This document shows positions 12,121 through 24,250 of a stretch of 64,000 nt of DNA, in pieces (the first letter of the stretch is position 1; every line of letters starts with the position of its first letter). The DNA is from Oidiodendron maius Zn (lineage: Eukaryota > Ascomycota > Leotiomycetes > Myxotrichaceae): assembly GCA_000827325.1 (NCBI GenBank), contig KN832900.1:148909-212908 (forward strand), written 5' to 3'. The position numbers were made by a program, and so were the translations under genes. The notes under the pieces were generated by a model that saw only the letters and a list, made by a program, of their open reading frames with translations, was not told the DNA's origin and made no database searches.

Positions 12121-12245
12121 ATATTCTAAAGGTGCTCTTTAGCTCTCCATGCTGGTTTATACTGTATATTTTGAAGTTAATAATATATTCCAGCTTGCTC
12201 TTAGATCCCTTTGGGCTTCATGTGTCGATTAATTATAGAAGGGTA

Positions 12246-12356
12246 CCCGACATCCCTGTGAAGCGAAAATCCCGTAGTAAGGCTAACGACCTCGACTGAG
12301 TTGCAAAATTCGCGTCCAAAAATAGCATTTCAGTTTTTGTAGCTATCTTCTTTTAT
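12246..12356 (+). repeat. left terminal inverted repeat of the island
   Basis: Begins right after TA with CCCGACATCCCTGTGAAGCG and runs to gtagctatctt...ttttat. It pairs inverted with 23,083-23,193. Shared blocks include AAGCGAAAATCC, GTAGTAAGGCTAAC and GTAGCTATCTT. Many of the differences are transitions. Related partial copies lie at 24,109-24,240. Confidence 0.65.
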
Positions 12357-12497
12357 ACCTGATATAGTCTATTCTCTAGCTTGGAGGTTTTTTCTTGATA
12401 GCTTGTATATTAGCTAATTAGTTAGACGATAAGTGTCTTCTGGCCGAACTGCCCTTTATCTAAATTAGATTGTTTTTATACATTACGAAAGATCTTA

Positions 12498-12655
12498 CAG
12501 TAATATTCGAAACTAGCTTCAGTCTAAACTCTATATGATTTTAAAATTGGCCCACAATTTTTGCCACCGCTTGCACTATTATAGTTAGCTTTGTTTCAGA
12601 CCATGATTCTTGCTTGGCATACAGCACGTGAGAAGTATATAGAGGTACCTAGCCT
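12498..12655 (+). repeat. left TIR of the nested element
   Basis: Inverted partner of about 15,752-15,907. It is near identical over the outer 45 bp, then patchy, with conserved actattatagttagc and cacgtgagaagtatatag-like blocks toward the inner end. Confidence 0.65.
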
Positions 12656-13041
12656 ACTTGGCTAACATCGGCACTTCATCAGGTCTGGTGGGTTGTCTGG
12701 CTCAGCTTATTCTAACTAATGAGAGAGTATTTTGATTCATGGATCCTATCATTACTCAGGAAATCTCGTTTCGTTTGCTTTCTTTGCCAGACAGCATTCA
12801 CCACAGAAGTAGAGAATATACAAATATTCCAGAGGGGAAATACAGCAGTATTACAGTAGAGAGATCTGATTCACGAGGACATGCCACTCTCTCTACACTA
12901 ATATTCAAGAAGATTTTTTCCATGAGTTGGTGGCAACACTTACTAGGTATATAGTAGTGCAGTCCCCCAGACCCCCTCAGGAACAGAGTTTCATAAAATA
13001 TAATCTTAGGCAGATGTATGAAATCTTTGCGATACACGTCG
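12656..13041. other. 3' flank of the HET-ankyrin gene, no gene seen
   Basis: Normal composition with CpG present. Short open frames on both strands (12,739-12,951 plus; 12,798-13,037 minus) overlap each other, have no recognisable motif and are probably chance. The stretch would contain the 3' untranslated region of the HET-ankyrin gene. Confidence 0.4.
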
Positions 13042-14310
13042 TCAAGAGGCTCCAGCTGATTTAAGCAGTTGTACTACCACCTCGTGTCCCTTCCCAGCTG
13101 CCTGGTGTAGGGCCGTCCGGCTATCTTTGTCCTTCGCATTGACGTCCGCCCCGAGGTCGACCAGTAGCCGTACTACTGCCTCGTGCCCCCTCTCAGCTGC
13201 CAGGTACAGGGCCGTCCGGCTATCTCTGTCCTTCACATTGACGTCCGCCCCGCGGTCGACCAGTAGCCGTACTACCGCCTCGTGCCCTTCCCAAGCTGCC
13301 TGGTGCAGGGCTGTCCGGCCATCTTCGTCCTTCGCATTGACGTCGTCCCTGAGGTCGACCAGCAGCCGTACTACCGTGTCGTCCCCCCTCTCAGCTGCCT
13401 GGTGCAGGCCCGTCCGGCCATCTCGGTATATGTCCTTCATATTGACGTCCGCCCCGCGGTCGACTAGCAGCCGTACTACCGCCTCGTGCTCTTCCCAAGC
13501 TGCCTTGTGTAGGGTCGTCTGGCCATACTGGTATATGTCCTTCGTATTAACGTCCGCCCCGAGGTCGACCAGCAGCCGTACTACTGCATCGTTGCCCTTC
13601 TCAGCTGCCAGGTACAGGGCCGTCCGGCCATCTCTGTCCTTCACATTGACGTCTGCCCCGAGGTTGACCAGTAGCCGTACTACCGTGTCGTTGCCCCTCT
13701 CAGCTGCCAGGTGCAGGGCCGTCCGGCTATACCGGTATTTGTCCTTCGCATTGACATCCGCCCTGAGGTCGACCAGCAGCCGTACTACCGTATCGTGCTC
13801 TTCCCAAGCTGCCTGGTGCAGGGCCGTCCGGCCATCTTCGTCCTTCGCATTAACGTCGGCCCTGCGGTCGACCAGTAGCCGTACCACTGCCTCATGTTCT
13901 TCCCTAGCTGCAAGGTGCAGGGCTGTCCGGCCATCTCTGTCCTCTGTATTAACGTCCGCCCCGAGGTCGACCAGCCGTACTACCGCCTCGTGCCCTACCC
14001 AAGCTGCCTGGTGCAGGGCTGTCCGGCTATACTGGTATTTGTCCTTCGCATTAACGTCCGCCCCGCGGTCGACCAGCCGCCGTACTACTGTATCGTGCCC
14101 CTTCTCAGCTGCCTGGTGCAGGGCCGTCCAGCCATCTTTGTCCTCTGTATTGACGTCCGCCCCGTGGTCCACCAGCAGCCGTACTACCGTGTCGTGCCCC
14201 TTCCCAGCTGCCTGGTACAGGGCCGTCCGGCTATCTTTGTCCTCCGCATTGACGTCCGCCCCGCGGTCAACCAGCAGCTGTACTACCGCCTCGTGCCCTT
14301 GCTCTGCCGC
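13042..14310 (-). repeat. ankyrin-repeat array, 99/105-bp units
   Basis: Within the HET-ankyrin gene, twelve highly similar ankyrin units follow one more diverged unit. The consensus runs TALHQAA.KGHEAVVRLLVD then RGADVN.KD. The basic unit is 33 codons (99 bp). Four units carry two extra codons in the inter-repeat loop (KYQYSR, KYRYSR, IYQYGQ, IYRDGR), giving 105 bp, and one unit lacks a Leu codon. Variation is concentrated in the loop and the first helix, as in fungal NLR and HET proteins whose repeats are kept alike by recombination while surface residues change quickly. No stop interrupts the array. Confidence 0.85.
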
Positions 14311-15477
14311 CTATAATAGCGGTATTAGGTTGCATGCTTTTATATTAATGTCAACATCGTCACGCACTAACAGCAGCTTTACTAGTGCCATATGCTCTTT
14401 ATCCATTATATACTTGAGCACTTCATTAGCAAATAAGTTCAAATTTTTTAAGAACTCTAAGAACCCCCAGTTAAAGAAGCAGCAAGGACAAGAGTCCAGC
14501 CTATTAAACTCAAGTAAGAAGGAGGTAGTGTTGAATATAACATCTTCAAGTTCCTTATTATAGTCTGCTTTTAGAATGTTAGTATTATATATATCTGAAG
14601 ATATGCCTAGTAAAGCATAAATCTGATCTCGGGGGTCAGTCGCTTCGCTATAGCGGAATTTATCTAGTATTGTATACAGATCTGGTTTTTTAGCCCACCA
14701 AGAGTGATCCCGAAGAGGACCTGGTATAATATTCAAGATAGATTCGTAATACAGGTCTAAGGTGATTCCTAGTAAAAATAGCATACAAGAAAAGATGTTT
14801 GTTGAGACAGATTTACTGCTACAAGTGATTTCAGCAACTTGTACATTAGTAGCTTCTTGGATAATCCAGACTCTCTTAAACCAATTCCGATAAAGGAGTG
14901 ACTATAAACCTTCGACTAGACAGTCTTTTTGGGCGTCATTTAAACTTTGTATAGTCGCTAACCAGATGTTCTTTAATTGTTTATCTGGAATTTCTATATT
15001 ATTTGAAGTATATTTAATATCCTCTTTCTCTAGTTGCTCCTTTAGTTGCTTTATATAATATATAATATAGTCCGTATCATAAGTAGCTTCACCTAACCAG
15101 ATAATAATTCGTTTGGCCTTACTGTAAATAGACCCTATCTGCTGAACTTGCTGGCCCTGTTCCTCCTTATTGTTTTAATCAATATAAAGAGCGTTAATCT
15201 AAAGGACCTGATCTTTTTCTTGGTAGCAGAGATCCCGAAGTACAAGATATATATTTTTTGTAACCTCCATTCTACTTTTATTGATCGTTATTTCATATAG
15301 TCTAGATTCACTTCCCCATATATAAGACAATGCTATATAATCTCCAACGTCTTCTAGTGGAGGGAGCTTTAACTCAAAAAGCTCGCACTGAATAGAGTCG
15401 CTATTGCCTTTAAGCAGTTAAAGAAGGCGGAAGGCGGGTCCCTTGAGACTAATTCGCTTGTACTTGAACTCCATCAT
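13042..15477 (-). pseudogene. HET-ankyrin incompatibility protein, five premature stops
   Basis: Starting at the ATG whose first base is 15,477, one frame runs 811 codons to TGA at 13,042-13,044 without a frameshift or intron. Codons ~47-55 (YIALSYIWG), ~91-103 and ~110-128 (SIYSKAKRIIIWLGE) and ~200-206 (FKRVWIIQE) are the three HET motifs. Codons 279-291 (ATDPRDQIYALLG) are the post-HET motif found in most of these proteins. Ankyrin repeats follow from about codon 380. Stops lie at codons 20 (TAA, 15,418-15,420), 93 (TAG, 15,199-15,201, at the conserved Trp), 101 (TAA, 15,175-15,177, at the conserved Gln), 192 (TAG, 14,902-14,904) and 389 (TAG, 14,311-14,313). All are explained by C-to-T or G-to-A change. 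HET proteins trigger cell death on recognition of non-self; the ankyrin array is the likely recognition surface. The HET half is AT-rich, the ankyrin half GC-rich and open. Confidence 0.85.
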
Positions 15478-15751
15478 CTGGTGTTGTAGCAGCTAGGTAG
15501 CGAGGAACACGTTGCTATCGGCTATAGGAAACAGGGTTGATGCCTTATATAACCAAATCTAGCGTAGAGCAGATTGGAAGGCTTGTCCGTTAAGGTAGGG
15601 CGGAAGAGGCGGATCAAAGTACAGGGCATAGTAGTATTGTATATCTAACTCAGGGAGAGCTTTGTTCGTCTCTGTTTGTACCGTGGAAGCTCCTAGAACT
15701 AGAATTGCAGGAAGTACCGATCTGAACCAAGGACGGTCCGTACCGTGACTG
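15478..15751 (-). promoter_or_regulatory. 5' flank of the HET-ankyrin gene
   Basis: This 274-bp stretch between the probable HET-ankyrin ATG and the inner end of the right TIR holds no open frame. It is the only place for the gene's promoter inside the nested element. No specific promoter motif can be named. Confidence 0.3.
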
Positions 15752-15907
15752 TCTTCAGTACCTGTATGTACCTCTCACGTGTTATGTGCTAAGCAGATAA
15801 TGCATGGGTACAATACTGCTAACTGTATCAGTACTAGTACAATGACGATTCTCGGCTAATTAAAAATCATATAGAGTTTAGACTGAAGCTGGTTTCGAAT
15901 CTTACTG
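15752..15907 (-). repeat. right TIR of the nested element
   Basis: Inverted copy of 12,498-12,655. The outer end reads (minus strand) CAGTAAGATTCGAAACCAGC and abuts TA at 15,908-15,909. Composition changes sharply about 50 bp outside it, where undamaged DNA begins. Confidence 0.65.
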
Positions 15908-15909
15908 TA

Positions 15910-16264
15910 CAACTTGAAGCTTTCTCAAAACTTATAATAGTTATTCAGATTTCGTATAGGATACTGGTATATATCTTAAACCTGAAGGTGCATGAGATGA
16001 CAAGGGTGAAAAGTCGGTGGTCGTAAGAATCTCGATTTTTGGACTCGGCTTTACTTGCCGCCTTATCCAGCGGCTCACTATAACCACGCCAATCTATGAT
16101 AATCTCAGCTTCGCCGTGTACAATGCACATGATTTTAGAAAGCGTAACCGAAATCTAGCGCCTAGTTTTGCCATATCATCATCGTCATCATCATCTCCCT
16201 TCCAGCTGTCGAGACATATGAAGCCGTAGGAGCTATAGACTCGGTTCGCTCGCTGAATCTCGAA
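15910..16264. promoter_or_regulatory. upstream region of the intact HET gene
   Basis: Normal-composition DNA after the nested element. It carries a short ATC/GTC trinucleotide run (about 16,174-16,196) and leads to a purine-rich context (cgaaATGG) at the HET start codon. Small open frames on both strands here have no recognisable content. Confidence 0.3.
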
Positions 16265-17578
16265 ATGGCATCGTCCAGCGTATACACAAACTGCCCGATC
16301 CAATCCAACCAAGTTCGTATTATCGAACTTCTTAAAGGCCAAGAAAAGCCTCTTTCCTACAAGTTTCACATTCACACATTAGAACAATGCCCTGCCTATA
16401 CAGCGATCTCATACGCGTGGGGTGATCCGGAACCTGGGACTTATGAAGCCCTGATAGACGGACAAACGTTTTGCGTTCGGCAAAATTTGTGGAATTGTCT
16501 CGACCAAGTGCGCCTAAATCACAAAATTAGATTTCTCTGGATTGACGCAATCTGCATCAACCAAAATAACCCGGTCGAAAAGTCGGAGCAGGTTTTGAAA
16601 ATGGGAGATATATATAGTAGGGCCACCGAAGTGTATGCATGGCTAGGAGAAGCAGATTGCCACACTAATCGTGTCTTCGATGTACTGCAGGAGTTTCGGG
16701 ATCGCAAGAGAGAAGCGGCATTTCCGACCCATTATGACACCGCTGAACAACTTTCGTATCATAGGCAACTGTTTCGCGATATCTATGAGAACAAGGCTGG
16801 TGCTTTACCGGAACAGAGCGATTTGGATGATGATATGTTGCACGAAGAATTCAATTGGCTTCGTCCCTTATATCTACGGCCTTACTGGCGCCGTGTCTGG
16901 ATTGTCCAGGAGCTAGTTCTGGCGAAGGTAGTTATTATTTGTTGTGGAGATAAATACATTGATTTTGACGACATATATGGGCTTAGCCTCGAATGGGGGT
17001 CATTTGAACAAGGCTTCGATACCGGGACTTATCAGATGCTGAAACCAGACTCGAGGGGATGGAACACCATCCAAGCAATTCGCGGCCACCGACGACGTCG
17101 GGATATTGGATGGGAGATAGTACGGGAGGTTCCGTGCCTGATGAACTTTGAGATGTCTGCACAAGACAATGGCGCGATATTCGATGAAGTCATTGGGATA
17201 TATGCCCAACATCACGAATGCAGTTGTCCAAAAGACAAAGTGTACGGTTTCCGTGAGCTAGTTCCACTATGGAAAGAAAAGCTTGAGGTGAATTATATGC
17301 AGTCTGATCTGGAAGTCTTTTTAAAAGTTGGGAAGCTTGATCTATTCGAACCAAAAAAGCACGGGGGATGGCAAGCGGCATTCTCTTTGTGGCTAGCAAT
17401 GGGATTAGGAGATCGTGAGAAGTTTAACGACTGTCTGCGGAAATCGTTCCCCGAGGTCACAATTGTGGAAACGAGTCACAGCCTCGAAATAAAAACACCC
17501 AAATTGCCGCATCACCTGCTGGTCAAGCTGGCAAAGTTGGGCGCCGACTTGGAGTCCATTGACCGTCCGCATTCCTAG
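16265..17578 (+). CDS. HET-domain heterokaryon incompatibility protein, intact
   Basis: A 437-residue protein in one exon. The HET domain shows all three diagnostic blocks: YTAISYAWGDPE at residues 45-56, LWIDAICINQNNPVEKSEQ at 91-109 continuing into IYSRA..VYAWLGE at 116-129, and YWRRVWIVQE at 207-216. The later CPKDKVYGF (321-329) is the usual post-HET DPRDKVYG block. The ATG sits in a good context (cgaaATGGCA). The remaining C-terminus (to LGADLESIDRPHS) ends without a recognised repeat domain; a short ankyrin-like GADLES could be a truncated repeat. HET proteins cause vegetative incompatibility by inducing cell death when different alleles meet in a fused cell. Codon use and CpG content are normal, unlike neighbouring RIP-damaged genes, so this copy may be functional. 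Confidence 0.9.
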   Translation: MASSSVYTNCPIQSNQVRIIELLKGQEKPLSYKFHIHTLEQCPAYTAISYAWGDPEPGTYEALIDGQTFCVRQNLWNCLDQVRLNHKIRFLWIDAICINQNNPVEKSEQVLKMGDIYSRATEVYAWLGEADCHTNRVFDVLQEFRDRKREAAFPTHYDTAEQLSYHRQLFRDIYENKAGALPEQSDLDDDMLHEEFNWLRPLYLRPYWRRVWIVQELVLAKVVIICCGDKYIDFDDIYGLSLEWGSFEQGFDTGTYQMLKPDSRGWNTIQAIRGHRRRRDIGWEIVREVPCLMNFEMSAQDNGAIFDEVIGIYAQHHECSCPKDKVYGFRELVPLWKEKLEVNYMQSDLEVFLKVGKLDLFEPKKHGGWQAAFSLWLAMGLGDREKFNDCLRKSFPEVTIVETSHSLEIKTPKLPHHLLVKLAKLGADLESIDRPHS

Positions 17579-18050
17579 CCCCTCTTCTCCCACATTTATC
17601 CTAGTTAAGGGTATCTCTGGGTTAAATTTTGGAGCCCTAACACAGTAGTGAATAGTAGTAGTATAGCCAGTTCCAAGGGCAGATATGACATGAAATAGCA
17701 ATAAGAAGTTAGAGGCCAATATTTTGTGGGTAGTTTTGCAATTCGGTCAGATTTTTTGCTTCGCGGAATCTTTCATCTTACAGTACTTTTGTGCCTCAAT
17801 AATGTGCTCATAGCTCATGACTTTTACACCGCTATAACAGCAAATATTTATTATTGTGATCGTCGGCGCACTGCTGGGAATCTTTTGGCACTGGAGCGAT
17901 GTTGCTAATTGCTCGCCACGTGATCCGACAACAAATCCATGATTTTATCATGGATTTGTGTCAACCTGGGCATGACTAAGCACGGATTTGGCTCGGAGAT
18001 TAATAGACCCACACACTCATTTTGTATTTAAACTAGGCTTCCCCTATTAG
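17579..18050. other. intergenic, contains a 12-bp-arm palindrome
   Basis: No gene is seen. At 17,931-17,959 ACAAATCCATGA is followed by a 5-bp spacer and its perfect inverted copy TCATGGATTTGT. This could be a stem, a palindromic binding site or the footprint of a small inverted-repeat element. Confidence 0.5.
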
Positions 18051-18491
18051 AGAGGGGCAATCGATTCTGGACGGGTTGACATCTATGGGACTCTCGAGCG
18101 GGGTGGAGAGCTAGACCGTTCAAGTATCCTCCAGATCCAGAGATTAGCAAGCGCAGCAGAGAATGCGTTCGCTGACCGAGCGATCCTCCTGGATGAAAAT
18201 CTACTTCTTTTCGAGCAAAATAATGAGCGAAACACTCGTAAGTCGATAAAAGCCACTGCGGTCGGCAGTGCGAAGGTCATGAGCTATGCGGACATTGTTG
18301 AGGCACAAAAGCAACGCGACATGAGAGAAGCCAACACTGGCACTGTGCCAGGGCGGGGTCGAGGACAGCCGAAGCGGAAGTCACCCACTGAAGTTCTTGG
18401 GAAGAGATCACGAAGTAAGGAGGTGGAAGTGGCGGAGCATGAGATTAAGTCGTTGGGATTGGAGAAGTACTGTTCTGTGCTACGATTTTAG
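18051..18491 (+). pseudogene. C-terminal fragment of a pogo/Fot1-type transposase
   Basis: An undamaged frame is open from after TAG at 18,048-18,050 to TAG at 18,489-18,491. It reads SSILQIQRLASAAENAFADR, a ...LLFEQNNERNTRK segment, then AKVMSYADIVEAQKQRD and the terminal LEKYCSVLRF. This is the characteristic C-terminal tail of fungal pogo/Fot1 (Tc1/mariner superfamily) transposases, beyond the DDE domain: LL.EQN..N.R, KVMSYEDIVEAQ.KRD, basic stretch, CSVLRF. The CENP-B-like DNA-binding part and DDE catalytic core are absent, so it cannot transpose anything. It lies in the middle of the TIR-bounded island and may be the relic of that element's transposase or of a separate insertion. It shows no RIP damage. 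Confidence 0.8.
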
Positions 18492-18684
18492 ATGTTAGAT
18501 TTCTGTGATTTTGCTTTAGATTGATGCTTTAATTGTTAGCCTAGATTTGACGTGATATTACTATCGTAGCTGAGGCAAAACCTCACATAAACTACTCCCT
18601 TCGCGTTATATCACCATGCATGTGGGACCGTCTCGAGCAGGTAGGGTGGTATCATATATCAGCCCCGCTGTATTTGTGGTTCCT
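18492..18684. other. convergent 3' region between transposase tail and HELLP-like gene
   Basis: No coding capacity. Its right part (about 18,625-18,684) is the 3' untranslated side of the HELLP-like gene, and weak similarity to the duplicate at 22,668-22,725 continues here. Confidence 0.4.
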
Positions 18685-19570
18685 TCAAAAGTGAATGTCA
18701 CTGATAGTGGCATTATTAGTTCCAATCTGGAATCCCTTTGCTAGATTTCCGAATGTTATATGCGTTGAACTTGCTTGCATTTCACTCGCAGCCTTGAAGA
18801 CGGCCTCTTCACTGACTCTTCCAAGCAACTCTACCAGCAACTTTCGTGAGGAGGCAAGCACATTTCGCGCTTCCTCAACTTGCTTGGCTGTATTCGCTGC
18901 ATCCTCTGCATCTTGAATTCGGTCTTCGCTAGCATCATTAAGTTGTATTTCCTCTAGACTGGTCTCTACTGCCGCCAACTGCATATCAGTCGATGAGATA
19001 GCCGTCGAGAGTTCAGTCTCCCTTACGGAAATAGATGTCTTGATCTGCTCAGTTATATTACTAGAGCGAATAGAGCTATATCTGTACATTATTATTAGCA
19101 TTAATCACAGTTATAACATCTTAGCATATAGCTACACACAGCGTCGCAATACCCACCACCGAGTTCATACCCATATAGTATATTTGGAGTTGGCCAGACA
19201 TTGCCTCTATTTGGCGCTGCTTAAGGAATCCAACATTAGCTCTGTCTTTCCAGGACAGTTTTTTTCCGTCGGAATGTTTCGTCCATAGTTTTAGATCAGT
19301 ACAGAACAACTTGCACACTATTGTACAGCTCTTGATTATAGATTTCGACTGCTTCACCACGGAGTCCCCGAGCAACTCCCACTCTACATCCTTCACAGCT
19401 TGGAGTGAATTGAGGGCTAATTCTATAAAGCGTAAGTTGGTTTTCAGCATCTCGAGGATTTTTGGCATATCGATGATGCGGCAGAGGTCGTCTAGAAGGA
19501 CTCGACTGCCGTGAAGTGCCGGAACAATGATACCGACCATGCCGGCACTTATACTGAGAGGATCAGCTAT
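18685..19570 (-). pseudogene. HELLP-like amyloid-controlled cell-death effector, start codon lost
   Basis: Two exons, 19,570-19,140 and 19,081-18,685, are joined by a 58-bp GT...AG intron (19,139-19,082) with a TGCTAAT-type branch site. The product is ~275 residues. The N-terminal part (DPLSISAGMVGIIVPALHG, then LLDDLCRIID, NSLQAV.D.EWELLG and LSWKDRANVGFLKQRQI) is the HeLo-like domain of fungal STAND effectors (Pfam PF17111). A coiled-coil stretch follows. The last 27 residues contain ITFGNLAKGFQIGTNNATIS, a pseudo-palindromic (PP) RHIM-like amyloid motif with QIG at 262-264. In this family the motif is templated by a partner NLR and the HeLo-like bundle then permeabilises membranes. The codon at the usual start (before ADPLS, 19,570-19,568) is ATA, one G-to-A change from ATG, and no in-frame ATG lies upstream. 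The rest is intact. A 5' exon missed by eye is the alternative to a lost start. Confidence 0.75.
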
Positions 19571-19772
19571 GAGTGCGATGCAATTCCAGAATCGATAACT
19601 GTAATAAACTGCGTGGCTAGTAGATAGGAGGAGCAGAAGAGGTCGAATGTTTGTCGGAGTTGGCAATTCGCCAGCTGACCCCGCTTAGCCCCAAGGCTGT
19701 GGGCGCTTAAAGCATCACAACTCGGTCTGCGACGTGACTCTCCAACTTAATCTGCTCCTCATTCTGCCCAGC
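19571..19772. promoter_or_regulatory. shared divergent promoter region
   Basis: The ~200 bp between the HELLP-like start position and the NLR start codon is the only space for both promoters, so the two genes may be co-regulated. Composition is normal. No specific element is identified. Confidence 0.4.
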
Positions 19773-20065
19773 ATGGCCCAGAGCAGAACAGACACTACAT
19801 TCGGGAATCTCGGTCGTGGCATTCAAATAGGGATCAACAACGGGCCGATCCTCTCTGCAGGTATGTCAGGAAAAATGGCCAAGCCCGATTTTGCTAACGC
19901 GATCTCACTGTTAGAGAGACCAGAAACACCACCGGTTCCGTTATCTACTGTCCGATTCCCTCGCGATGCTGATTATGTCGACCGGCAGGTACTGCTGGAG
20001 CGTGTCTGTACTAAATGTTCTATATCTGGGTCCTGGACTGCGCTTGTAGGCTTAGGTAGGGTCAG

Positions 20066-20120
20066 GTAAGTCATCAGGCATATATCTGGTTCTATCCCGG
20101 CTGGTCTAACCTCTATGAAG
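20066..20120 (+). other. intron of the NLR gene, within the Walker A codons
   Basis: GTAAGT donor at 20,066, CTAAC branch site at 20,106-20,110 and AAG acceptor ending 20,120. Splicing joins ...GTC AG and G AAG TCG, restoring the KSQLA part of the P-loop. The splice signals are undamaged although the flanking exon is RIP-hit. Confidence 0.75.
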
Positions 20121-21486
20121 GAAGTCGCAACTGGCTATCGAATACTCTTACCAGGTCAGAGATCAATTGCCTGATATATGGGTTTTTTGGGTCTATATGA
20201 GCAACGCAGCCTGTCTAGAGTAGAGCTATCGGGAGATTGCTGACTGCGTCAAGATTGCGGGTCGGAAGGATCCGAGGGCTAATGTCTTTAAGCTTGTTTA
20301 TGACTAGCTATACGACGAAAAGAATAGAAAGTGGCTCCTCATCCTCGATAATGTCGATAACGCCCGTTTCCTCTATAAAGCTCCACTCTTAAGCCAGGAT
20401 AGACCGGGAAGTGGCCAGGCAGGGATATTAAGATAGCCACTCTAGACTTATCTCCCTTAAAGCCAGAATAGGTCGATCCTTATAATAACACAGAGCAGGG
20501 AGGTAGCACTAAGGCTTATTGAACAGAGCAACATTATTGAAGTAGAACCGATGGACAAGGTGTATACAGTAGCACTTCTTGAGAAGAAGCTAGGAATGGA
20601 CGATAGAACAGACATTATGGAGCTTACATTAGCACTTGAGTTTATACCCCTGGCTATTATTCAAGCAGTAGCTTACATCTTATAAAGGGCACTGTATTGT
20701 TCCGTGCGGCTGTACCTTGAAGAGCTTCGGAAGAGCGATCGCAAGACGACAAGTCTTCTGAATCATAAAGGTGGGCACCTTTGCAGGGACTAGGAGGCAA
20801 AGAACTCTATTATCGTTATATAGCAAATATCGTTCGATCATATCTGTGAAATCAGACTATCAGCTGCTGATTTACTATCACTAATAAGCTTTTTTGACCG
20901 GTAAGGAATTCCCAAGGCTTTACTTCGAAGTCGAATCGAGCCAAGGAACTTGCAGCAAGACAAGGAAGAGAGGAATAATAATAACTCTAGTGAAAATAGT
21001 AATGAAGATAACACATTACAATCTAGTGTAAGTGATGGATTTGAAGACGATATCTTGGCCCTATAACACTACTTGTTTATCTCTATCAATATAGACGGCA
21101 CGACATTTGAAATACACAGACTAGTGCAACTAGCAATACAAAAATAGCTTCAAGATCACGGGAAGCAGGAGAAGTGGAAACAGCAATTTATTAGGAATCT
21201 TGATATAGAGCTTCCGACCGGAGAGTATAAGAACTGGGGAAGGTATCAGGTGCTTTTCCTGTACATGAAATCAGCCGTAATATAACAGCTGGAGGAACAA
21301 GGTTTATTAAGAGACTAGGCTTTAATACTATATAAGGCAGTATAGTATATATAGAAGTTGGGGAATGGGGTAGAAGCAGAGAAAATATCAATTCAAGCAA
21401 TAAAAGTTTGAAAGAGGATGCTTGGTCAAGAGTATAACAATACACTAGATAGTATAGCAATGGTAGGTTTTGTATATACGCTTAGG

Positions 21487-22340
21487 GGCTAGTAGGATAA
21501 GGCTGAAAAGCTAGAGGTTAAAGTGATAGAGACTTGCAAGACGAAACTCGGAGTAGACTATCCAGATATGCTGACTAGTATGGCTAACCTCGCGTTGATG
21601 TACTAGAATCAAGGCTGGTGGGATAAAGCCGAAAAGCTAGATGTCGAAGTGATGGAGACTTGCAAGACGAAACTCGGAGCGGACTATCCAGACATGCTGA
21701 CTAGTATAGCCAATCTCATGTCAACGTTTTGGAATCAAGGCCAGTAGAACGAAGCCGAAAAGCTATAGGTCGAAGTGATAGAGACAAGCAAGACAAAACT
21801 CGGAGCAGACCATCCAGATACACTGTCCAGCATGGCCAACCTTATGTCGATATATAGGGATCAAGGCTGGTGGGATAAAGCCGAAAAGCTAGACATGGAA
21901 GTGATAGAGACTTGCAAGACGAAACTTAGAGCAGACTATCCAGACATACTATCCAGTATAGCCAACCTCGCTTCAATATATAGGGACTAAGGCTGGTGGG
22001 ATAAAGCTGAAAAGCTATAGGTCAAAGTGATAGAGACTTGCAAGACGAAACTCGGAGCGGACTATCTAGACACACTGACCAGTATAGCCAACCTTATGTC
22101 GATGTACTGGAATCAAGGCTAGTGGGACAAAGCTAAAAAGCTATAGATTAAAGTGATAGAGACAAGCAAGACAAAACTTGGAGCGGATTACCCTTCTATA
22201 TTGACTGGTATAAATAACCTTGCCTTTACCTGGAAGAGCCAAGGTCGAGATACTAAGGCTCTTAAACTAATAGAGGAATATATATAGCGACGGTCTTGGA
22301 TCTTAGGTTCTAATCATCCTTACACTAACTCTTCCTCTAT
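21487..22340 (+). repeat. seven 126-bp TPR units
   Basis: Units start at 21,487, 21,613, 21,739, 21,865, 21,991, 22,117 and 22,243, each 42 codons (GWWDKAEKL..EV.ET, then CKTKLGADYPD and SIANL). Spacing is exact and DNA identity between units is high except for TAG and other transition changes. This is the kinesin-light-chain type of TPR usual in fungal NLRs. The last unit is more diverged (KSQGRDTKALKLIEEYI), as is typical for the end of such arrays. Confidence 0.8.
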
Positions 22341-22354
22341 AGCACTAAGTCAAT

Positions 22355-22725
22355 AGAAATCTTCAAGACTATCCCTGTTAACTGAAATAGAGCTTGTGGA
22401 AGTAGAGACGAGCTTAAAGGATATGTATCTATAACGCTAGCAAGGAGTGAAGGCAAAATATACAGAGAGTATAGCTAATATACAAGCAAGTTGAAGATAC
22501 CGAATTGCACTTGACTCGGGAAATTACTAGAAAACTGCTGTCTATAGTTAGAGATGCTGTCTTTAAGTCTACAAGTGAACTGTATAGCCGGTAAACATAT
22601 AGAAGCTTTGAAATCAGGAAAACGGATTCCAGATTGGAACTAATAATGCCGCTATTAATGGGATTCACTTCTAAAGGGAGCTACAAATGTAGAGGGACCA
22701 TTGTGTAGTAGCCTTTCTGCTAGCT
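22355..22725 (+). pseudogene. 3' remnant of a second HELLP-like gene
   Basis: This stretch aligns base by base with the 3' half of the HELLP-like gene (reverse complement of about 19,010-18,640). Landmarks are VEVETSLKD against AVETSLEE, caagcaagttgaag against caagcaagttgagg, and an identical run gattccagattggaactaat continuing aatgcc. The translated end is FQIGTNNAAINGIHF plus a TAA stop, a PP motif like the intact effector's SDIHF end. Similarity continues ~30-60 bp past the stop. There is no HeLo-like domain. The upstream part is in the same frame as the NLR, so a fused NLR with a second C-terminal amyloid motif is possible. Frameshifts and stops make it non-coding now. Confidence 0.75.
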
Positions 22726-23082
22726 TAGCTGTAGCATACAATTAAGCGTTATCAAAATGCAGGTGTAGCTATAGAGCAAACTTTCAAGAGACAGCAAGTA
22801 AAGCCGAGGGTAATTTTGTTGACTTAAACAGCCACAAGTTCTGATCCATGAAACTTAATATACCTTAAACCTATAACAAATGAAATTCTATTTGTAGTAT
22901 ATTTAAACAACTATCATATATTATGACTGAATTTCAAGTTATAGAAACATTATTGCAGTGTAGAAAATATATAATTCAGATATATAGCAGTTTAATTATA
23001 TGATACTTACCAGGCAACTTATTAGCCAATATACTAGTTATAAAAGAGAAAACACAATATAAGGGGAAGGAGTGCACTAAGA
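22726..23082. other. AT-rich, no gene seen
   Basis: A decayed stretch between the HELLP remnant and the right TIR of the island. No open frame or motif. Confidence 0.4.
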
Positions 23083-23193
23083 ATAAAACAAGATAGCTAC
23101 AGAAACAAAAATACCATTTGTGGTTATGAACTTTGCTATTTAGTGAGGGTGGTTAGCCTTACTACAGGATTTTCGCTTTGTAGGGATGTCGGG
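23083..23193 (-). repeat. right terminal inverted repeat of the island
   Basis: On the minus strand it begins, right after TA (23,194-23,195), CCCGACATCCCTACAAAGCG and continues to GTAGCTATCTTGTTTTAT. It is inverted relative to 12,246-12,356. Confidence 0.65.
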
Positions 23194-23195
23194 TA

Positions 23196-24108
23196 CTTGA
23201 GTTTATTTGTTAAGACAGATTCAGTAAATAATATATTTTCAGGGGAGGATTAAAGCACGGACTATCTGGGGTGTATATATTAATTTTTATCCCTATAAGA
23301 TACTTCATAGTACTTTATGGGACCTTACCAAAACCAAGAAGGTGCTTAAATTGGAAGCGTTGGCACTGAATTAAACAGCAAGGCAGAAATGGAGGGCGCT
23401 AAATCTCATGCTTTTCTAAGTATAGTCTAATCCAATATTAGATAGACTATAAGGAAACAAAGAAAGCTATTTTGTACTATAAGTATATACTCCTTTATAG
23501 CTAGATAAGCTCCAAATATATATCCCTTACTTTCCTGTATTCTTTTCATCCCTTCTTGTATATAATATCTGTATATTTAAAGTAGAGGTTAAACTTTGAT
23601 TAAGGGAGAGGCCTTTCCTAGAAGGATTGATTCCATTATTATTGTTGCTTAAATATACCCTAAAGTAATCCCTAGTAACTATCCTTGATACACTCTTATA
23701 TCATTGCTATAGCAGTATAGGGTTCTAAAGTAATAGAGTGAAGAGCAAAGGACAAAGATAAGGCTATCTATAAGCAAAGCAAGGTATAGAAATCACACTC
23801 TAGCCAAGAAAAGTATCTATCTAAAAGAGGTATAGATTATTGAAAAAAAATTTTATATTAGGGAAAAGAGGTATATATAGCTTTTAAAGATTTTAGGCAG
23901 TAGTATATACCTCCAACTATAAGAGGAATATAATAAGCTTTCTATAGAGCTAGAGGGCTTATTGGAAGATATAGAAAACCAGTGGATACAACTTTAAGAG
24001 GATAGTGGCTGGAGAGCAAGACTGATCCTTATTTAGTGGCGTTAGTGGAACTTCTATTACTACTAAGTTAACTTAGAAGTTAGGATAAAGCAATTAGTTT
24101 ATATAAGT
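23196..24108. other. RIP-decayed DNA, no gene seen
   Basis: Stop-dense in all frames, AT-rich, no recognisable repeat or motif. Confidence 0.5.
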
Positions 24109-24250
24109 ATCCAACAACCCTGCAAAGCGAAACTCCTGTAACATTAGACCAAATAGCAAAATTTACAGCTATAAATAGTAACCAATATCCCTACAAAGCG
24201 AAATCTTATAATAAAGCTAACAACCTTGACCAAATAGCAAAATTAGTAAC
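24109..24250 (+). repeat. two tandem partial copies of the island TIR
   Basis: Two related stretches start near 24,111 (ccaacaaccctgcaaagcga) and 24,179 (ccaatatccctacaaagcga). Both continue into a block ending gaccaaatagcaaaatt that corresponds to the inner part of the 12,246/23,193 TIRs. They have the orientation of the left TIR and are RIP-degraded. No partner in opposite orientation was found to the right. Confidence 0.5.

Follow-up and report, generated by a model that had tools for sequence, protein, structure and literature searches.

The origin and patchiness of fungal incompatibility genes are an open question, and a 64,000-nucleotide stretch of the Oidiodendron maius Zn genome (the window) raises it in a concrete form: how did HET, HET-ankyrin, HELLP-like and NOD-like receptor (NLR) genes come to lie together between two terminal inverted repeats (TIRs)? 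A preliminary description of the window had answered that one large composite element carried the set. Searches of the 45.9-Mb host genome, the one genome covered here, lead us to another answer, which we regard as probable: the island arose when two or more non-autonomous transposons with gene cargo, all of one subfamily (subfamily 1), fused, and the family to which they belong is mobilised by a Fot/pogo transposase. That TIRs bound gene cargo was right; that they bound a single element was not, since internal TIR remnants show at least two fused elements. Below, C-numbers denote contigs (the window lies on C31) and L-numbers loci fetched from the host genome.

The inverted repeats had been described as 111 bp long, abutting TA, at 12,246 and 23,193. 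Inverted-repeat comparison within the window found real, TA-ended repeats there, but with longer arms: 12243-12481 and 22958-23196 are 70% complementary over 239 nt without gaps, and 168 of the 239 positions match, compared with 97 at best when inverted arms were placed at random in the window 20,000 times. The exact ends of the island are 12244 and 23195, each TA-ended and reading TACCCGACATCCC. The reported change in base composition close to both ends also held, with roughly 30-36% GC in the flanks and 36-61% inside (1-kb windows). To the right of the island, two degraded tandem copies of the subfamily-1 TIR end lie at 24108-24250 on the plus strand.

These TIRs proved to be transposon ends that recur genome-wide around other gene cargo. 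The 24-nt core has 87 genome copies at up to three mismatches, against none for the reversed control pattern. A subfamily-1 profile built from 20 ends is about 450 positions long, 90-93% conserved over its outermost 40 positions and 61-81% in later 20-base blocks; TA starts 30 of the 35 subfamily-1 ends printed, the ends being placed by alignment. Profile search of the fetched sequence gave 21 two-ended, inward-facing elements of 0.8-17.6 kb: L009, L010, L011, L012, L013, L015, L020, L021, L022, L023, L028, L029, L030, L031, L032, inner L033, outer L033/L036, L035 (its far end placed from the core search), L037, L018+L034 (17.6 kb) and the window. Several of them, among them L021, L023, L031 and L037, have a damaged end. 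Nine one-ended loci (L014, L016, L017, L019, L024-L027, and L040 for subfamily 2) are left out of this count; L024 has a weak possible second end. A 1.28-kb element that has CAGTCGGTTCCAGG-type ends and is flanked by TA breaks up the outer TIR of L033 (L033:905-2199), and a repeat of ~160 bp, 97.5% alike, is common to L028:858-1016 and L010, in the former inserted in the TIR with GCTGA on both sides. A 23-nt piece of the TIR had no match in viral and prokaryote contig collections, a result uninformative on spread among fungi.

Seventeen neighbouring pairs of cores lie 1.5-25 kb apart: 11 face inward, one faces outward and five are in tandem orientation. This ratio of 11 to 1 speaks against the idea that the TIRs are independent short insertions, akin to miniature inverted-repeat transposable elements, flanking the genes of a gene-rich accessory region that were never cargo. 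Short copies of 0.8-1.5 kb do exist elsewhere (L012, L013, L021, L037), which goes part of the way towards the two separate small elements that the preliminary description named as a refutation, and the genome is rich in HET genes, but each outer end of the island is a single arm, with no complete short copy on either side. Taken with the shared cargo and the clean empty site described below, the inward pairing led us to set this explanation aside as very improbable.

Within the island, two adjoining TIR remnants, both cut at TIR position ~250, divide the sequence (see the table). The first pairs with the left outer arm (score 75, against at most 19 in shuffles) and the second, more weakly, with the right one (score 30, against at most 18, with 59% identity), while cross pairs between the TIRs of the two parts are at noise level. 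Because the remnants pair with different outer arms, the island consists of two or more fused elements. Judged from these repeats, A (12244-15909; HET-ankyrin) and B (15906-23195; HET, HELLP and PNT1-like NLR) were most likely once separate and then fused. Loss of the palindrome centre from abutting TIRs would leave just such a symmetric cut, and we infer that fusion occurred by deletion of the palindromic A/B junction. Since B also holds a transposase tail, an inverted tail fragment and a short repeat, B may be composite too. It seems unlikely, by comparison, that the 10.95-kb unit 12244-23195 was built once and moves whole. Both outer ends are intact and TA-flanked, and large elements occur elsewhere in the genome (C30, 17.6 kb; C14, 9.6 kb); against this stand the pairing of each remnant with a different arm, the mere 70% likeness of the outer arms, and a search with the part 17600-22750 that found no second copy with the same ends. 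Flank searches of the same genome likewise yielded no single-TA empty site for the island: the left flank is partly repeated elsewhere, never through the insertion point into the right flank, and the right flank is unique except for a 42-bp match.

What do the other family members carry? Pfam was run on the longest open reading frames (ORFs), a part of all ORFs. At least one scanned ORF had a non-transposase match in 16 of the 21 two-ended elements, and a HET or NLR domain was present in eight; L030 adds a HET remnant found by tblastn. The remaining five comprise L009, L013 and L037, scanned without a match, and L012 and L021, in which no ORF was scanned. In L022, L029, L031 and L035 the domains are spread over adjoining open frames, reflecting introns or frame breaks. 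HET clusters numbered 15 inside elements (133 kb), none outside (111 kb) and one in the one-ended loci (92 kb). Four of the 15 (L035, L036, L041 and the second in L042) and the one-ended match were judged to be WD40 cross-matches of one query, which leaves 11 inside and none outside; among the 11, that of L011 is a weak fragment and that of the window comprises two genes. The outside sequence is largely AT-rich and not randomly sampled, and the count serves only as support. Of the 150 best HET matches that were scored, from 481 first-look candidates, four lie in paired elements, against ~0.5 expected by a rough hand estimate of coverage; all but ~5 of the 150 are without stops. Carriage of host-type genes by Fot/pogo-type transposons, with a wealth of incompatibility-type genes among them, is a real, family-wide phenomenon.

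Other cargo deserves mention. An open serpin gene lies at L010:1886-3103; its closest relatives with a name, at 43-49%, are from Pochonia and Metarhizium, and the genome search found a single further serpin (C7:1583076). With just these two, we rejected common serpins as the source of the similarity between L010, L014 and L018, which reflects another repeat. A 4.64-kb stretch with a NACHT-ankyrin NLR (L018:1741-6381) is present in C30 and absent from the related L011 element; inspection of this insertion revealed no clean target duplication.

Evidence of movement came from comparing elements at different places. L022, on C1, and an element on C30 hold two copies of one HET-ankyrin cargo and have the right TIR in common (86.7% identity over 2420 bp, 84.6% over 573 bp); the shared cargo and TIR indicate that one cargo element is present at two loci. 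Within the C30 copy sits another element of 3755 bp (in L034), which has related TIRs of 45 bp and contains an open HET ORF of 643 amino acids (aa). TA stands on both sides of this element, and L022 has a single TA at the corresponding empty site. One element of this sister group, subfamily 2, has thus inserted precisely with TA duplication, which bears out, for this subfamily, the TA target proposed earlier. A subfamily-2 end used as query (L034:4523-4640) gave 40 matches, the best 40 of 48 candidates. A 7.0-kb subfamily-2 element (C30:84806-91836) contains an intact Fot/pogo transposase together with a HET-WD40 gene; L042 has HET, NACHT and WD40 in that order in three adjoining open frames; L043 has an SDR gene and a transposase remnant near the long end; and a pair of subfamily-2 ends on C19 (929800-935016) encloses a HET match.

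The preliminary description had linked pogo transposases with TA duplications, and the matching type is indeed Fot/pogo, with tails inside several elements. In three subfamily-2 elements the transposase lies ~620-670 bp inside the long end, a spacing with a rough chance expectation of ~0.0003 per transposase (calculated from 26 long ends; a recount of 29 gives the same to one digit). The subfamily-1 type is open on C30 (L034:292-2046, 585 aa), and tails of it lie in L022, L020, L035 and the window. DDE_1 (PF03184) scored 98.4 bits in L034:292-2046 and 115.3 bits in L039:2431-4221; both open transposases are DD35D, with 35 residues between D2 and D3, and HTH_Tnp_Tc5 scored 24.9 bits in L039, above the cut-off of 22.2, and 18.8 in L034, below it. 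In L022 the left TIR runs directly into transposase codon ~547, at either a deletion or a capture junction. Among the best 120 of 989 matches to the C30 transposase, some public records stand at 87-95%, and relatives from Penicillium, Talaromyces, Cladosporium and Cercospora at about 55-64%. A Fot/pogo transposase is most likely the mover of the family, and subfamily 1 would have been moved by its matching type.

Could a different TA-targeting transposase have moved the family, the pogo genes inside being nested passengers? PF03184 has 130 matches genome-wide, many with in-frame stops, the C30 subfamily-1 transposase is far from the TIRs, and remote pogo copies, with 24-26% identity, occur in L028 and L035. 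We nevertheless find this improbable in view of the subfamily-2 transposases lying at ~620-670 bp inside the same end in three elements, of the subfamily-1 type and its tails in five TIR elements, and of the remaining genome relatives, which are at most 69% identical (best 75 of 164 candidates).

Several observations weigh against our interpretation of a transposon family with two fused members in the window. Likeness between the ends of the two subfamilies is confined to the tip, with 8 mismatches over the first 30 positions. TIRs are ~60-90% alike, so that movement may be old. The pairing of the two B arms, at 59% identity, is weak, and no empty site for the island was found in its own genome. 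The coding sequence of several cargo genes is broken or spread over adjoining frames. The HET repertoire of the genome is very large, and some HET genes may therefore have been trapped by chance. Finally, the only intact subfamily-1 transposase was found inside the nested 17.6-kb element, where no TIR directly adjoins it, and it could thus be a passenger.

The window island is a fused, partly decayed example of the family, as its genes illustrate (see the table). The HET gene, the HELLP-like effector and the pogo/Fot1-type transposase tail named in the preliminary description were all recovered, the tail being real although PF03184 itself has no match in the window. Two other genes it named survive in part. 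The HET-ankyrin gene has its ankyrin ORF and a HET fragment, but in-frame stops at 15201, 15177, 14904 and 14313 break the frame; it is a pseudogene or carries unrecognised introns. The PNT1-like NLR has the N-terminal motif and TPR_10 but is split into short frames; over ~2.2 kb its DNA has 69% identity with the NLR of the family element L031. Read by eye, the G-phi-Q-phi-G motifs GFQIG and GIQIG occur near the C-terminus of the HELLP-like protein and the N-terminus of the NLR. Relatives of the window HET protein reach 81%, and named ones (58-64%) come from Geoglossum, Trichoglossum, Elaphomyces, Xylogone, Bisporella and Alternaria (best 120 of 205 matches), which is a patchy spread. The HET ORF, HELLP-like gene and transposase tail have no signature of repeat-induced point mutation (RIP; TpA/ApT 0.58-0.84, second index 1.33-1.38). 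The flanks have one (1.37-1.46 and 0.71-0.83), element A leans that way (1.27 and 0.96; its ankyrin ORF 1.68 and 0.91), and the NLR is intermediate (1.13 and 1.10). The AT-rich flank at 23196-62000 has RIP-like ratios of 1.37-1.46 and 0.71-0.76.

Table. Features of the window island, subfamily-2 transposases and cargo of the two-ended elements
Feature	Position	Strand	Evidence or detail
Left outer TIR (element A), TA at end	12244..12570	+	profile positions 1-320; nhmmer 4.5e-70
HET-ankyrin gene of element A	13042..15201	-	Pfam; ankyrin ORF 13045-14310, HET fragment 14902-15174
Right TIR remnant of element A, outer ~250 bp missing	15758..15909	-	positions ~405-253; pairs with left outer arm
Left TIR remnant of element B, outer 250 bp missing	15906..16103	+	positions 251-447; nhmmer 8.1e-24
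HET-domain ORF of 470 aa between stop codons, with its first Met at 16265	16166..17575	+	PF06985 1.6e-29
Inverted fragment of pogo transposase tail (weak)	17750..17944	-	tblastn 41%/34 aa, E 0.03; DNA 76%/68 bp
Short repeat, ~123 bp, between two inverted transposase-tail fragments	17959..18081	.	88-98% alike, several genome places
Fot/pogo transposase C-terminal tail	18081..18488	+	79% identical to residues 450-585 of intact C30 copy (L034:292-2046)
HELLP-like gene, two adjoining open frames	18688..19684	-	HeLo-like PF17111 at 19124-19684; C-terminal motif TFGNLAKGFQIGTNNATI
PNT1-like NLR, frame-broken	19689..22284	+	N-terminal motif TFGNLGRGIQIGINNGPI; TPR repeats, TPR_10
126-nt (42-aa) TPR repeats of NLR	21347..22276	+	repeat family, Pfam
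Right outer TIR (element B), TA at end	22746..23195	-	profile positions 449-1; nhmmer 6.1e-108
Subfamily-2 transposase	C30:89634-91172		open, 597 aa
Subfamily-2 transposase	C31:70871-72659		frame-damaged
Subfamily-2 transposase	C25:72653-73096		match position from genome search
L010 cargo: serpin			Pfam
L011 cargo: hydrolase			Pfam
L015 cargo: kinase			Pfam
L020 cargo: methyltransferase, NmrA			Pfam
L022 cargo: HET-ankyrin			Pfam
L023 cargo: HET, SDR			Pfam
L028 cargo: PRISE, HA2			Pfam
L029 cargo: HET, NB-ARC, TPR			Pfam
L030 cargo: T5orf172			Pfam
L031 cargo: SesA, NB-ARC, TPR			Pfam
L032 cargo: HET			Pfam
L033 cargo: Ras-ankyrin			Pfam
L035 cargo: SesA, NACHT, WD40			Pfam
L036 cargo: WD40			Pfam
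C30 17.6-kb element cargo: NACHT + ankyrin, HET-ankyrin, HET			Pfam

From the observed TIR family, its pairing, its diverse cargo, the transposases inside elements and the fusion junction, the following course of events may be proposed. A transposase of the Fot/pogo type (DD35D) would act on the TIR ends and insert elements at TA. Most copies examined have lost or shortened the transposase gene and retain host-like genes, often of the HET/NLR incompatibility type. Element A would have carried the HET-ankyrin gene, and element B the HET gene, the relic of a transposase and a cell-death pair of the HELLP/PNT1 type. With A and B lying tail to head, loss of the abutting TIR halves would have left a single left end and a single right end, separated by 10.95 kb. 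The way of gene capture, and a benefit of the cargo to either side, are matters of inference.

The mobile carriers discussed in the papers that we cite are giant Starships, which are tyrosine-recombinase cargo elements whose reported cargo includes HET/NLR genes (PMC9594970). We rejected a Starship origin of the island, to which we give almost no credence: none of the 22 DUF3435 matches in the genome is on contig C31, and the island ends are TIRs with a TA target. Small cut-and-paste elements with one or two incompatibility genes, one of which has an intact transposase beside such a gene, would give a simple, testable route of spread and recombination, and fusion of elements would account for TIR-bounded islands like that of the window. 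More tentatively, we speculate that a class of Fot/pogo elements might live by carrying and reshuffling incompatibility genes (HET, HET-ankyrin, HET-WD40, HET-NACHT-WD40, NLR, HELLP/PNT1) as mobile cassettes, a possibility that we hold to be rather doubtful. If true, the cassettes would populate the genome with its very large set of HET genes and give rise to new allorecognition loci; the cause would perhaps be punished loss of a cell-death cassette, or a host gain in recognition diversity.

How does the family compare with known systems, as the excerpts of the cited papers present them? Fot-class elements have TIRs of 40-60 bp (~100 bp in FotC), a TA or TAA duplication and DD35D; pogo elements have a published total length of 1.2-5.2 kb (PMC7386202), and the Sclerotinia Tc1-Mariner families one of 1.4-2.3 kb (PMC4188875). 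The PF03184 DDE domain, DD35D, HTH_Tnp_Tc5, the TA target and the 45-bp subfamily-2 TIR are all Fot/pogo-like (PMC7386202; PMC4188875). In contrast, members of our family carry extra genes and measure 0.8-17.6 kb (7.0 kb for the subfamily-2 element whose transposase is intact), and the ~450-bp subfamily-1 TIR is outside the Fot-class range; very long TIRs (392-856 bp) are reported there only from insects (PMC7386202). We found no description of pogo or Tc1/mariner elements with HET/NLR cargo in open-licence PMC titles and abstract openings, which is weak evidence.

Carriage of HET/NLR and other accessory genes in Pezizomycotina is shared with Starships, which differ in their tyrosine recombinase and far larger size. 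The HELLP/PNT1 pair of Podospora and Chaetomium shares an amyloid motif between effector C-terminus and NLR N-terminus (PMC7885112); the adjacent NLR and HeLo-like effector of the window, with TPR and a common motif, resemble it, but in the window the reading frame of the NLR is broken and TIRs enclose both genes. The domain order of L042 is that of the Podospora HNWD genes, although its domains lie between transposon TIRs in three adjoining frames; a transposable-element relic next to one pseudogene, and an association of NLRs with transposable elements in general, are mentioned there (PMC1805685, PMC12222747). ToxhAT, a hAT-like 14.3-kb element with 74-bp TIRs that carries ToxA and an NLR-type gene, and for which its authors found no target duplication (PMC6737239), is likewise TIR-bounded, composite and gene-carrying, with a nested transposon; here, unlike there, a family carries many different cargo genes. 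In Pyrenophora and Pseudocercospora, hAT elements have taken up histone H3 (PMC3538342, PMC6710886). They too are TIR transposons of fungi in which a host-type gene was captured, with longer, likely autonomous and shorter forms, but they belong to another superfamily and carry a histone H3-like gene, with no incompatibility genes mentioned in those excerpts, as opposed to the many different genes here. The cargo, 450-bp TIRs and lengths of the present family are outside the descriptions found, and its closest kinds are Fot and the fungal gene-capturing hAT elements.

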